A stretch of DNA of 64,000 nucleotides from Actinacidiphila guanduensis (GTDB lineage: Bacteria; Actinomycetota; Actinomycetes; Streptomycetales; Streptomycetaceae), in the NCBI RefSeq assembly GCF_900103985.1, contig NZ_FNIE01000006.1, forward strand, positions 62,001-126,000. Reading direction: 5' to 3'. A model generated the notes under the pieces. The model saw nothing but the letters and a program-made list of their open reading frames with translations. It ran no database searches and was not told where the DNA came from. Position 1 is the stretch's first letter. Each line of letters starts with the position of its first letter. Position numbers and translations under genes: made by a program. Positions 7,085-12,136 of this stretch are shown here, piece after piece.

Positions 7085-7256
7085 CGCGCGTCCGGGGCCG
7101 TCCTCGGGTTCCGGATCGCCGCGCCTTCCCGCGGTCACCTGCGCACACGGGCAAACCGCCCCTTCCGGCGCAAGCAGGTGGCCAACTAGGTGTATCCGCA
7201 ATGTAATTTGCGCGTCAGCGGTCCCCGCGGCGAATTCCGGTCGTACGCTCGGAGCC

Positions 7257-8594
7257 ATGCCCGACGCCGCTCACCGCATCCGTGACATCGCCGAACACGC
7301 CCTGTCCGTCCCGTTCCCCCTGCGCATCCGCGCCTGGGACGGCAGCGAGGCCGGCCCCGCCCACGCACCCGCCCTGGTCTTCCGCAAGCGGCGCGCCCTG
7401 CGCCGGCTGCTGTGGCGGCCGGGGGAACTCGGCCTGGCCAGAGCGTGGGTGGCCGGCGAACTGGACATCGAGGGCGACCTGTTCGCCGCGCTCGACGTGC
7501 TCTCCGACCTGATCTGGGAGCGCGGCACCGAGGCCGGCGGGCCCGCCGAGCCGCCGGCCGGCCGGGCGGAGAGCGCCCGCAAGGCGCTGACCGCGCTGCG
7601 CGACCCCGCCACCTACCGGCTGCTGCGCAGCGCCCTGACGCTGGCCGGGCCCGGCCTGCCGCCCTCGCCCCCGCCGGAGGAGGCCCGCCGCCGCAGCGGT
7701 CTGGCGCACACCAGGAGCCGCGACAAGGCGGCGATCTCGCACCACTACGACGTCGGCAACGCCTTCTACGAGTACGTCCTCGGCCCGTCGATGGTGTACT
7801 CCTGCGCGGTGTGGGAGCGGCCGGAGACCACCCTCGAGGAGGCCCAGCGGGCCAAGCTCGACCTGGTCTGCCGCAAGCTCGGGCTGCGCGAGGGGCAGCG
7901 CCTGCTGGACGTCGGCTGCGGCTGGGGCTCCATGGTGCTGCACGCCGCCGAGCAGTACGGGGTGCGGGCCACCGGCATCACCCTGTCGGCCGAGCAGGCC
8001 GCCTACGCGCGCAAGCGGGTGGCCGAGGCGGGCCTGACCGACCGGATCGAGATCCGCGTCCAGGACTACCGCGACGTCAGGGACGGCCCCTACGACGCGA
8101 TCTCCTCCATCGGCATGGCCGAACACGTGGGCTCCGAGCGCTACCTGGAGTATGCGCGCGCCCTGTACGCCCTGCTGCGGCCAGGCGGCCGGCTGCTCAA
8201 CCACCAGATCGCCCGGCGCCCGCTGCAGGACGAGGAGGAGTACCGCATCGACGAGTTCATCGACCGCTACGTCTTCCCCGACGGGGAGCTGTCGCCGGTG
8301 GGCACCACGGTGAGCCGGCTGGAGGAGGCGGGGTTCGAAGTGCGCGACGTGGAAGCGCTGCGCGAGCACTACGGGCGCACCCTGCGCGCCTGGGTGGCGA
8401 ACCTGGAGGCCCACTGGAAGCAGGCGGTGGCGGCGACCAGCGCCGGGCGGGCCCGGGTGTGGCGGCTCTACATGGCCGCCTCGGCGATCTCCTTCGAACG
8501 CAACAGCATCGGCGTCAACCAGGTGATGGCGGTGCGCACCGAGCCCGGCGGCCTGGCGGGGCTGCCGGCTACCAGGACGGCGTGGCTGTCCTGA
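7257..8594 (+). CDS. cfa: Cyclopropane-fatty-acyl-phospholipid synthase family methyltransferase
   Basis: This 445-aa SAM-dependent enzyme should transfer a methylene or methyl group to the double bond of unsaturated acyl chains in membrane phospholipids. It has the CFA-family N-terminal domain (about 20-135), the conserved entry motif HYDVGNAFY (163-171), the SAM-binding glycine motif DVGCGWG (218-224) and GMAEH (286-290), whose Glu is part of the bicarbonate/active-site set in CFA synthases. The length fits. The ATG at 7257 has GGAG very close (2-3 nt), so initiation may be weak. The next gene on the strand is bldA, separated by a strong terminator. Confidence 0.9.
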   Translation: MPDAAHRIRDIAEHALSVPFPLRIRAWDGSEAGPAHAPALVFRKRRALRRLLWRPGELGLARAWVAGELDIEGDLFAALDVLSDLIWERGTEAGGPAEPPAGRAESARKALTALRDPATYRLLRSALTLAGPGLPPSPPPEEARRRSGLAHTRSRDKAAISHHYDVGNAFYEYVLGPSMVYSCAVWERPETTLEEAQRAKLDLVCRKLGLREGQRLLDVGCGWGSMVLHAAEQYGVRATGITLSAEQAAYARKRVAEAGLTDRIEIRVQDYRDVRDGPYDAISSIGMAEHVGSERYLEYARALYALLRPGGRLLNHQIARRPLQDEEEYRIDEFIDRYVFPDGELSPVGTTVSRLEEAGFEVRDVEALREHYGRTLRAWVANLEAHWKQAVAATSAGRARVWRLYMAASAISFERNSIGVNQVMAVRTEPGGLAGLPATRTAWLS

Positions 8595-8701
8595 AGCCGT
8601 CCCGGGAGCGTCCGCGAACGGCGGTGAACCGCCACCCCGGCCGACACCGCCCGGGCCCTTCCGGGCCCCCGCCCGCACGCTGCTGCGCCACCCCGCGCGC
8701 C

Positions 8702-8751
8702 GCCCCGTCGCCCCCGCGCCCTGCACTTGCAGGTCGCAGGGGCGACGGGGC
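8702..8751 (+). terminator. cfa terminator (nested hairpin)
   Basis: A perfect 13-bp inverted repeat, GCCCCGTCGCCCC at 8702-8714 and its complement at 8739-8751, encloses a second small hairpin CTGCACTTGCAG (8721-8732). It isolates bldA from cfa readthrough. Confidence 0.75.
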
Positions 8752-8781
8752 CGGGCGGTCGCCGGTTGCGCTGAGCGAATT

Positions 8782-8798
8782 CACGTCACGTGTACGTG
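8782..8798. promoter_or_regulatory. Palindromic element upstream of bldA
   Basis: CACGTCACGTGTACGTG contains the inverted arms CACGT/ACGTG and an inner CACGTG. It lies about 155 bp before the tRNA, between the cfa terminator and the likely bldA promoter. A regulator site is inferred only from symmetry and position. Confidence 0.35.
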
Positions 8799-8908
8799 CG
8801 GGCGGGGGCTGCCGGGATACCGGCTTGGGGTGCGGCGGGAGGTCGGGCACGGAGATGACGGCCCGTCAGTAACCCCTAAAATAAGACAACATGGCCACTT
8901 GGCCGTCC

Positions 8909-8936
8909 TGTTCGCGACCCCCAACCCGGATACGCT
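8909..8936 (+). promoter_or_regulatory. Candidate bldA promoter
   Basis: TACGCT at 8931-8936 is an acceptable -10 box 17 bp before the mature tRNA 5' end. The -35 is weak (TGTTCG at 8909-8914, 16-bp spacer). The gap 8595-8953 otherwise holds only the terminator and palindrome listed separately. Confidence 0.35.
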
Positions 8937-8953
8937 TTCATAGCGCCCCGCCG

Positions 8954-9040
8954 GCCCGGATGGTGGAACGCAGACACGGCGAGCTTAAACCTCGCTGCCC
9001 CTCGGGGGGCGTGCCGGTTCGAGTCCGGCTCCGGGCACCA
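8954..9040 (+). tRNA. bldA: tRNA-Leu (anticodon UAA), bldA
   Basis: An 87-nt class II tRNA. Acceptor GCCCGGA (8954-8960) pairs with TCCGGGC (9030-9036), followed by discriminator A and an encoded CCA (9038-9040). The anticodon stem GCGAG/CTCGC (8979-8983, 8991-8995) closes the loop CTTAAAC with anticodon TAA at 8986-8988. There is a long variable arm and a T-arm with GGTTCGAGTCC. The UAA anticodon reads UUA, the rarest codon in streptomycetes. This tRNA is the known developmental regulator bldA, which limits translation of TTA-containing genes for aerial growth and antibiotics. The 3' part is overlapped on the other strand by the prim-pol gene. Confidence 0.97.
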
Positions 9041-9896
9041 TGGACGCCCGGAGGCGGCCGGCGGAGGCCACCGTCGCGGCCGCCTCCCGCTCGCTCAGCC
9101 CGATGTGGACCGCCGCCGTGACCAGTGCCGGCGCCAGCGCGTCCCCCACCCCCGCGTCGTAGGCCCGGCAGGCCGCCCAGAACAGCCGCCCGTTGCGCTC
9201 CCCTTCCCGCGAGTCCAGCACGAAGCGCACCAGAGCCGAGGCCCGGCGCTCGGCCGGGTGGCGCGATCCCCGGTGCCGCGCCTCCTGGGGGGCGGACGGC
9301 GGCTCCAGCAGCGCGAGCAGTTCCGGCGGGACGGCGGCGAACCGGTGCTGCCGGGTGCCGGGCTCCAGCAGGTAGTGGCCGGCCACGGTGCGCGAGCCGG
9401 GGCCCACCAGGTAGCCACCGGCGCCGCGCACGTCTATGCCGGGAGCCAGCCGGCCCACGGAGTTGGGCACCGGGCCGGGTGCGGTCAGCCACAGGTGGCG
9501 GCCACCGGAGGGGGTGCGCACGCAAACGGTTTCCGGCAGCGCGAACCGTCGGCTTTCGGCCAGGGCGGCCAGCGCGGCCGCCCCGTCCGCACCGTGCTTC
9601 ACATCGAGGTCGAGGCCGACGAGGAAGTGCGGGGCGGTGCCGCAGGCCACGCCGTACCCCGTCGCCCAGGGCGCGACGGCGAACAGCGCCCGTATGACGG
9701 CCGGGTCGGTGCTCGCGTCGTGGACGCCGTGGCCGGGGCGGCCGCACTCGCCCCGGCAGTCGGCCGCCCGGGGCTCGTCGCGGTGCGGGGAGCGGATCGC
9801 CGGCAGCTTCGTCCGGGACAGCGGGAAGACGGGCAGGCCGCGCGCGGCGGTCAGCAGCGCGGCGTGCAGGGCACGGATGTGGTCGGGGCGTGGCAT
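8985..9896 (-). CDS. Bifunctional primase/polymerase (prim-pol) domain protein
   Basis: A 303-aa protein of the AEP/prim-pol superfamily, whose members synthesise primers or extend DNA. Visible motifs are GLDLDVKHG with acidic residues Asp96 and Asp98, SGGRHLWL at 130-137, and IDVRGAGGYLVGPGS near 154-168, all in family order. No helicase partner or repA-like region is present, so the role is unknown. The ATG at 9894-9896 is preferred (GGGAG about 8 nt upstream); a GTG 13 codons earlier has no usable spacing. The 3' end is odd: the last 18 codons run antisense through bldA, and the TAA stop (8985-8987) lies in the bldA anticodon loop. The tail GAGLEPARPPRGSEV is therefore tRNA-derived. Confidence 0.8.
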   Translation of the reverse strand: MPRPDHIRALHAALLTAARGLPVFPLSRTKLPAIRSPHRDEPRAADCRGECGRPGHGVHDASTDPAVIRALFAVAPWATGYGVACGTAPHFLVGLDLDVKHGADGAAALAALAESRRFALPETVCVRTPSGGRHLWLTAPGPVPNSVGRLAPGIDVRGAGGYLVGPGSRTVAGHYLLEPGTRQHRFAAVPPELLALLEPPSAPQEARHRGSRHPAERRASALVRFVLDSREGERNGRLFWAACRAYDAGVGDALAPALVTAAVHIGLSEREAAATVASAGRLRASMVPGAGLEPARPPRGSEV

Positions 9897-10165
9897 CGCC
9901 TGCTCCCTGCTGTTCGAACGGGTGTTCGTCTGCACCCTTCAGTGATACCGCGCCGGAAGGCCGCCGTCCACTGCGAATCGCCGCGCGGGGCGCCGGGAAG
10001 GGAGACGAGGGTGCGGCGAGGTACCAGCAAGGGAGGAGCAAGGGAGGGCCGCGCCCGCCCCCGCTGACGGACTGTCGGTGCGGGGTAATACCGTCGGCAC
10101 TGCCGGGGGACGGTGCGGCCGCCGGGCACACAGGTGCGGGGCGATGGGGGAAGACCGAGGGGGAC

Positions 10166-12136
10166 ATGGGGGGCGACATGGACGGACTGCACGCAGGGGA
10201 CGCCGGGGCGTCCGCGGGCGGCGAGGAGCGGCTGGCCGCCGAGGGCGAGACCGCCCTGGCGCGGCTGGTCATGGACGGCGGCGACCTCGCGCACGCCTCC
10301 GGTCACCTGGCCGGCGCCTTCGCCGCCGACCCGCGGCTGCCCGACGCCCACGAAGCACTCGCCGAGTTCGCCCGCCGGGCCGGCGGCCCGCAGGCCGCGC
10401 TCGAACTGTTCGATCCCGACGAGCCGTTCGCCGGCACCCTGATCTGCCGCGCCCACCTGCAGGCCGCCTGCGGGAACTGGCCGGAGGCGCTGATGCTCGT
10501 CGCCGCCGCCGTCCGGGCCGACCACGAGCGCCCCTGGTCGCACGTCGCGTGGCTCACCCAGGAGGCGCTGCCCGCCCTTGTGCCGCCCCAGGCGGTGACC
10601 CAGGCGCTGGCCCACATGGTCACCGCCCTGCCCGACCCGCTGCCCGAGGACGCCCGCGAGGCGGTCCGCCCGTTCCACGACCTGGCCGCCGCCGTGGTCG
10701 AACAGCACCGGGGCGACGCCTCCCTGGCCGCCATCGGCTCCGCCCTGGCCCGCCGCATGGGCGACACCGACCGGGCGGTCGCCTGGGCCGAGCGAGCCCA
10801 CCGCCTGCAGCCGGACCACATCCCCGCCGTCATGCTCGGCTACGCCCTGCGGGCCGCCGGGCGCCCGGACGAGGCGCTGCGGGTCTGGCAGGAGGAGATC
10901 GCCCGGGACGGCTCCGACCTGTCGCTGATGGTGGACATCGCCGAGCTGTACGCCTCCACCGGCCGCCCCGGGCTCGGCCTGCCCTGGGCCGAGCGGGCCG
11001 CCGCGGCCGACCCGGAGCACCCGCAGGCCGCGCCCGCGGTACTCGGCGTGCGGTACGCCGCCGACGGCGACCCGGCGCACTTGCTGGCGCTCGCCGACCA
11101 CCTGCGCACCCGCCCCGACCACCCCTACGCCGCCACCGTGCTGGCCCGGCACAGTGAGTGGCAGCCCTGGCTCGGCGTGGTGGCCACCGCCACCGAGGCC
11201 ACCGTCAACGTGCTGCACCGCATCCTGGACGACCCCGAGATGGGCGCCGACCGCACGGCCGGCGTGCAGCTGGCCGCCTCCATGATCGAGCCGCCCAGCG
11301 CGTCGCTGGCCTTCCTCGCGGCCTTCCCGCGCGGCGAGATCGTCAACCGATCGGTGGGCGAACCCGATCCGCGCGAGCCGGTGCGCCCGGTCGGCCGCGC
11401 CGTGTGGCGGTACGAGGGGCTGACCGCCCACCCCGCCGTGCCGGCCCCGTCACCGGAGGCGGCGCGGCTGGTGCGCGACACCGCGTCGGCCACCTGGCCG
11501 CACATCCCGGCCGCCTACGACCACGGGGTGCGGCTGTCCGGGCTCGCGCTGGACGACCTGCTCGGCGTCCTGGCGCACCCGCCGGAGCCGCCCGACGACC
11601 AGCAGGGCCGCTTCCTGCGGGCGCATCGCCCGGAGTTGTGGATCCGCGCGGTGCAGACCTTCGCCTGCCTGGGCCTGGCCCACCACCGGGCCGACGAGCC
11701 ATGGGTGGGATCGGTGCGCCGCTCGGTGCTGCTCGACCTGCTCGACGGGCCCGAGGACTGGGTGAGCGAAGCGGCGGCCTTCGCCATGGTGGCCACCGCC
11801 TGGGTGGACCCCTCGGTCCGCGAGGACGCCGGGCTGCGGGTGACGGAGCGGATGCTCGCCGCCGCCACGGCCTACCGCACCCGCGAGGTCACCGTGCTGG
11901 GCTCGCTGTGCCGGCTGGTGCTGCTGTGCCCGTGGCTGGAGCCGGCCTGCGGCGACCTCGCCCGCGACCTGCTCGCGGCGATCCGCCGCTCGGCCGACGA
12001 GGTGCCGGCCGGCGCCGGGGACCGCGCGCGGGAGATGGCGCGGGCCGCCGAGGCGCGGGGCCGGTCCCGCCTCCCGGCGCCGGGCCCGGCCGAACCCCAG
12101 CGGCGCCGCGGGCTGTTCCGCCGCCGCAGGGGCTGA
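10166..12136 (+). CDS. Large TPR-like helical repeat protein
   Basis: This 656-aa soluble protein is rich in Ala and Leu helices. The middle (about 150-340) reads like degenerate tetratricopeptide repeats, with units such as DTDRAVAWAERAHRLQPDHIP and GRPDEALRVWQEEIARDGSDL, each with an A-x-x-A/P turn. The C-terminal third is helical and ends in a basic RRRGLFRRRRG tail. No catalytic motif was found. The role is probably scaffolding or protein-protein contact; I cannot name a partner. The open frame extends upstream, but the ATG at 10166 follows GAGGGGGAC and begins the conserved-looking part; an ATG 12 nt later is an alternative. The 270-bp gap before it (9897-10165) shows nothing recognisable. 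Confidence 0.75.
   Translation: MGGDMDGLHAGDAGASAGGEERLAAEGETALARLVMDGGDLAHASGHLAGAFAADPRLPDAHEALAEFARRAGGPQAALELFDPDEPFAGTLICRAHLQAACGNWPEALMLVAAAVRADHERPWSHVAWLTQEALPALVPPQAVTQALAHMVTALPDPLPEDAREAVRPFHDLAAAVVEQHRGDASLAAIGSALARRMGDTDRAVAWAERAHRLQPDHIPAVMLGYALRAAGRPDEALRVWQEEIARDGSDLSLMVDIAELYASTGRPGLGLPWAERAAAADPEHPQAAPAVLGVRYAADGDPAHLLALADHLRTRPDHPYAATVLARHSEWQPWLGVVATATEATVNVLHRILDDPEMGADRTAGVQLAASMIEPPSASLAFLAAFPRGEIVNRSVGEPDPREPVRPVGRAVWRYEGLTAHPAVPAPSPEAARLVRDTASATWPHIPAAYDHGVRLSGLALDDLLGVLAHPPEPPDDQQGRFLRAHRPELWIRAVQTFACLGLAHHRADEPWVGSVRRSVLLDLLDGPEDWVSEAAAFAMVATAWVDPSVREDAGLRVTERMLAAATAYRTREVTVLGSLCRLVLLCPWLEPACGDLARDLLAAIRRSADEVPAGAGDRAREMARAAEARGRSRLPAPGPAEPQRRRGLFRRRRG

Follow-up and report, generated by a model that had tools for sequence, protein, structure and literature searches.

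The bldA gene of streptomycetes is required for aerial growth and for TTA-containing regulators. In S. coelicolor it is transcribed at the level of some other tRNAs and cut within CCA, as stated in the available part of one study (PMC4681348), and a strong BldD binding target lies within the gene according to the accessible portion of another (PMC4255298). RNA complementary to tRNA genes has been described in S. ambofaciens, for which the accessible text of an RNA-seq study names antisense RNAs to the Cys, Leu(CAG), Pro, Gly and Met tRNAs; tRNA-Leu(UAA) is absent from this list of five (PMC8388888), which comes from another genus and says little about the species analysed here. For S. venezuelae, the main text of a study of LexA gives the consensus tCGAAC-N4-GNNCGa, with TCGAACATCCATTC before recA, and contains the word primase 0 times (PMC9380542). 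Spurious proteins overlapping RNA genes are collected in AntiFam, as described in the available part of its report (PMC9710616).

The locus analysed here lies in a stretch of 64,000 nucleotides from Actinacidiphila guanduensis, referred to as the window, in which a gene for a bifunctional DNA primase/polymerase (Prim-Pol) converges on bldA and ends inside it. The literature search on bldA antisense or opposite-strand transcription and on antisense-tRNA overlaps in general did not find the Prim-Pol overlap, older subscription papers on the bldA transcript being outside its scope.

Overlap of the Prim-Pol gene with bldA

The features that define the overlap are the following.

8954-9040, plus strand: tRNA-Leu(UAA), bldA (ARAGORN and sequence), with anticodon TAA at 8986-8988 and encoded CCA at 9038-9040
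8985-9896, minus strand: Prim-Pol gene from the conserved ATG at 9896 (303 aa; PF09250, genus-wide start)
8985-9040: C-terminal Prim-Pol codons over bldA, antisense tail VPGAGLEPARPPRGSEV, 56 nt of overlap
8985-8987, minus strand: Prim-Pol TAA stop, antisense of U33-U34-A35 in the bldA anticodon loop
9041-9050, minus strand: junction at which Prim-Pol coding sequence abuts the CCA end of bldA without a gap, from tail sequences; stop and spacer of the orthologues are missing

The overlap takes up 56 of the 87 tRNA nucleotides and comprises the stop together with 17 whole codons and two bases of one more. The original prediction, that the gene ends inside bldA on the opposite strand and that its stop shares two bases with the anticodon, was confirmed by the ARAGORN call and the minus-strand ORF; the stop reads TTA on the tRNA strand at 8985-8987 (U33, U34, A35) and has U34 and A35 in common with the anticodon. 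A full-length Prim-Pol mRNA must include the stop and therefore carries at least 56 nt complementary to bldA, in agreement with the further claim that it is complementary to the 3′ two thirds of the tRNA. The tRNA is the only one with anticodon TAA among the 59 tRNA genes read in the genome, the number kept as distinct genes against 61 Rfam matches. An Rfam scan of 7200-10300 at the gathering score gave no match, which was taken as a filter effect, and bldA scored 49.5 bits genome-wide. The CCA of bldA is encoded in only seven of the 50 bldA loci read from the genus and family, the window included.

Prim-Pol matches PF09250 with E 2e-32 and 113.3 bits, against a gathering cut-off of 22.8, and retains GLDLD and SGGRH, which we take to be the catalytic motifs; with these motifs present, primase/polymerase activity is predicted. 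The start, ATG 9896 in the window, is conserved across the genus, and the ORF is open up to GTG 9935 (8985-9935, minus strand, 316 aa). The frame is free of frameshifts with a GC3 of 0.92, and its pN/pS relative to the other orthologues has a median of 0.32, compared with 0.22-0.31 in six of those. Judged by its sequence, the gene is functional and under purifying selection. The branch of the window is 0.31 long in the Prim-Pol tree versus 0.08 in the cfa tree, and the long Prim-Pol branch may reflect somewhat relaxed constraint or a changed function. A feedback loop acting through TTA in Prim-Pol was rejected, as this codon occurs 0 times in 25 of 25 orthologues.

Stop positions of orthologues and origin of the overlap

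The genus search covered 35 genomes, of which 34 have a Prim-Pol match at E ≤1e-20 and one has none at that threshold. Loci were available for 30 genomes, four further genomes having only weaker matches and no loci, and 25 of the 30, including the window, were close orthologues (identity ≥76% and the same tail motif), while the remaining five, at 59-64% identity, were treated as more distant homologues and left out. When each frame was followed to its stop, only that of the window entered bldA (by 56 nt), and all 24 other orthologues, 76-83% identical, stopped outside. Seven stop 1, 1, 2, 3, 10, 13 and 14 nt before bldA, seven stop 126, 134, 178, 236, 297, 451 and 570 nt before it, nine stop at 1765-2028 nt, and one more has bldA on another contig. 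Since the ends of the tRNA matches vary slightly in position, these lengths are accurate to about 2 nt, and in G015 the contig end cuts bldA. The two genes are convergent in 24 of 24 same-contig cases, window included, and eight of the nine species with long spacers have an amine oxidase gene between the two, oriented like bldA.

The data do not support a conserved or selected overlap. The original prediction had named orthologues ending before the tRNA as evidence against it, and such an end was found in all 24 other genus orthologues, 23 of them with bldA on the same contig, and in 80 of 80 named homologues (the best 80 of 123), none of which stops inside a convergent tRNA; four of these 80 belong to the genus and probably repeat genomes of the genus set. 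The overlap is thus kept in 0 of 24 and 0 of 80, respectively, and looks like a small evolutionary accident rather than a conserved switch. Among the same best 80 of 123, the Streptomyces homologue is convergent with tRNA-Ser(UGA) at a distance of 66 to 2866 nt in 35 loci (L041-L116), and this partner and the tRNA-Leu(UAA) of the genus are both tRNAs with a long variable arm.

The tail sequences indicate how the overlap would have arisen. Relatives have a conserved end, ATVASAGRLRAS or RLRAA, after which come a few residues and the stop. In the window, ATGGTGCCC follows RLRAS immediately at the tRNA edge, TGG being the complement of the encoded CCA. The base preceding the CCA complement is the same in the window and in G026; CCA is encoded in bldA of both G011 and G026. 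The window groups with G011, G026 and G033 in the Prim-Pol tree (84/69) and in the cfa tree (88), where G034 also joins the group. Of these three relatives, two show spacers of 178 and 1938 nt and the third carries bldA on another contig. In both trees the window does not fall with the lineages whose spacers measure 1-14 nt, a placement that is weakly supported.

The preferred reading starts from a functional Prim-Pol gene tail-to-tail with bldA, whose own stop and spacer would have been lost in the window lineage, most likely in one deletion ending close to the first base beyond the tRNA. We infer such a deletion because stop and spacer are absent and RLRAS is joined to the tRNA edge; with the nearest relatives about 80% identical in Prim-Pol, no intermediate strain shows it. 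The frame would then run into the antisense strand of bldA and be closed by the TAA complementary to U33-U34-A35, so that the protein would gain about 18 residues dictated by the tRNA and the mRNA would necessarily acquire antisense-bldA sequence, with a probably small effect on the tRNA. Integration of an element at bldA, suggested by the position of the Streptomyces homologues beside tRNA-Ser(UGA), was rejected, as no second bldA end was found in the window genome (one match).

The stop follows mechanically once an ORF enters in the appropriate frame, as one of the antisense frames entering bldA stops at 8985-8987 and the two others run through to 8938-8940 and 8876-8878. TTA occupies positions 33-35 in 50 of 50 bldA genes read from genus and family, and each of them therefore offers the antisense TAA. 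In 10 of the 50 loci, window included, an antisense ORF of at least 80 codons ends in bldA, and that of the window, the one among the ten scanned against Pfam, is tied to a conserved gene. Elsewhere in the window genome, domain-supported antisense ORFs were found at the following positions.

L218:1125-2405: PCMT methyltransferase (Pfam), ending antisense in tRNA-Leu(GAG) with 62 nt
L200:430-1518: HAD hydrolase (Pfam), ending antisense in tRNA-Val(CAC) with 28 nt

Such ORFs end inside at least three of the 59 tRNA genes, a lower bound because besides Prim-Pol only four ORFs were scanned with Pfam; these were picked by eye from composition and tail, and two of the four had a family. An integrase-like frame (L168:692-1555), named by eye and without a Pfam match, ends antisense inside tRNA-Met. 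A tRNA gene can in this way serve as a backstop for a gene without a stop, and the anticodon loop of tRNA-Leu(UAA) always offers an antisense TAA. The overlap itself is real, restricted to this lineage within the genus and mechanically explained. It very probably represents a lineage-specific loss of the stop codon with a stop provided by the tRNA and a small effect on bldA.

Possible transcription across bldA and the LexA-type box

The main alternative reading concerns regulation by antisense RNA, and the elements that bear on it are a LexA-type box and two hairpins.

9914-9929: putative LexA/SOS-type box TCGAACGGGTGTTCGT, ending 18 nt upstream of the Prim-Pol ATG
9050-9087, plus strand: GC-only hairpin with 11 bp arms (9050-9060/9077-9087), terminator-like, without a T run
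8696-8757, between cfa and bldA: long hairpin with 30-nt arms, z −6.0 by folding

CGAAC-N4-GTTCG is present near the promoter, upstream of Prim-Pol, in 25 of 25 genus orthologues, with varying middle bases. A count of TCGAAC-N4-GTTCG over both strands of the 8.2 Mb genome gives 8, with one palindromic site entering it twice, and the reversed control pattern occurs 0 times. The recA box of S. venezuelae is also found in the recA locus of the window genome (L233:1302). CGAAC-N4-GTTC was not found near lexA in the stretch examined, which speaks neither way because the lexA boxes of S. venezuelae are imperfect. Among the matches listed for the Streptomyces set, 0 of 73 homologues have the box within −300 to +100 of the match start; 76 loci were scanned, and L070, L080 and L088 were left out because their matches start elsewhere and the fixed stretch is not the upstream one. 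In this set the matches begin some 30 residues into the gene, and the tested stretch therefore extends only about 200 nt beyond the gene start. A literature search on bifunctional primase and LexA likewise did not find the Prim-Pol overlap. The box is a new lead and predicts LexA binding and induction of Prim-Pol by DNA damage for the genus. Given its presence in all 25 orthologues, a LexA-controlled Prim-Pol converging on bldA is a genus-wide prediction.

No T-run terminator was found on either strand by a scan of 8500-10200. The hairpin at 9050-9087 lies just behind bldA and within the Prim-Pol ORF. As a bldA terminator kept in the coding region it was rejected, the post-bldA hairpins at spacers of ≤14 nt, window included, being no stronger than the others (8 vs 17, p 0.64). 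For minus-strand RNA that has passed bldA, the nearest strong terminator-like structure is that at 8696-8757, and 8815-8953 forms no more stable a fold than shuffled sequences (z −0.5); such RNA could therefore cover bldA together with its promoter region. BldD bound in bldA might hinder this read-through. Parts of 8634-8740 are matched at 75-78% identity by four other places in the genome. A hairpin of at least 10 pairs that includes the Prim-Pol stop codon is found in nine of 24 relatives (G015, G002, G010, G030, G027, G024, G005, G014 and G033), and the window has none there. In the seven short-spacer relatives (1-14 nt) the 3′ ends of the mRNA probably also lie at or inside bldA, and thus the closeness itself recurs.

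It is possible, as far as these patterns go, that Prim-Pol RNA regulates bldA. The RNA from a LexA-boxed Prim-Pol would pair with the bldA precursor, or its transcription would collide with that of bldA, lowering the tRNA after damage and delaying development. The real overlap, the box in all 25 orthologues, the short spacers in seven further species and the absence of a T-run terminator from the scan, with the nearest strong minus-strand hairpin past bldA only at 8757-8696, are consistent with such regulation. However, the spacer is 126 nt to 2 kb long in 16 of the 23 other linked species, with a gene in between in eight of the 16, and the genus therefore does not need contact between Prim-Pol and bldA. 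The hairpin at the Prim-Pol stop is also kept in three of the seven short-spacer species, and a mature tRNA is tightly folded. Antisense regulation is for these reasons very unlikely. The full sequence of events, in which DNA damage derepresses Prim-Pol, mRNA running through the whole of bldA lowers active tRNA, and aerial growth and antibiotics are held back via UUA, would be still more doubtful; the seven short-spacer relatives could do the same through 3′ untranslated RNA.

A sequencing or assembly error that fused the genes, the true genome stopping before bldA, is compatible with there being one assembly only and no close strain for comparison. The junction nevertheless lies inside a 511 kb contig of an assembly that is 99.99% complete, and the join leaves the tRNA whole, with its encoded CCA, which makes an error highly improbable. 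A functional role of the extended C-terminus in the enzyme is scarcely credible, since despite the open frame and the purifying selection on the gene its letters are dictated by the tRNA, it occurs in one of 25 orthologues, and it resembles known antisense-tRNA translations of the GAGLEPARP type.

Comparison with known systems

Lineage-specific stop-codon loss thus remains the preferred reading, and as the evidence stands the overlap is a lineage-specific curiosity. If the SOS link is real and read-through effective, there would be a direct tie between DNA damage and the best-known of the developmental tRNA switches in streptomycetes, and the window species would then be a natural test of that link.

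The overlap is similar to the PCMT/tRNA-Leu(GAG) and HAD/tRNA-Val(CAC) pairs in that an ORF enters the 3′ end of a tRNA gene antisense, receives its stop from the tRNA and ends in a tail of the GAGLEPARP kind. Unlike spurious ORFs of the AntiFam type, Prim-Pol is a real conserved enzyme and the tRNA is bldA. The antisense RNAs of S. ambofaciens (PMC8388888, accessible text) are likewise complementary to tRNA genes in a streptomycete; in contrast to that RNA-seq case, the present one is known from DNA alone and the tRNA is Leu(UAA). With the LexA regulon of S. venezuelae (main text of PMC9380542) the locus shares the box consensus, and the window genome the same recA box, but it is here that Prim-Pol is boxed, while the Streptomyces homologues lack the box in the tested stretch.
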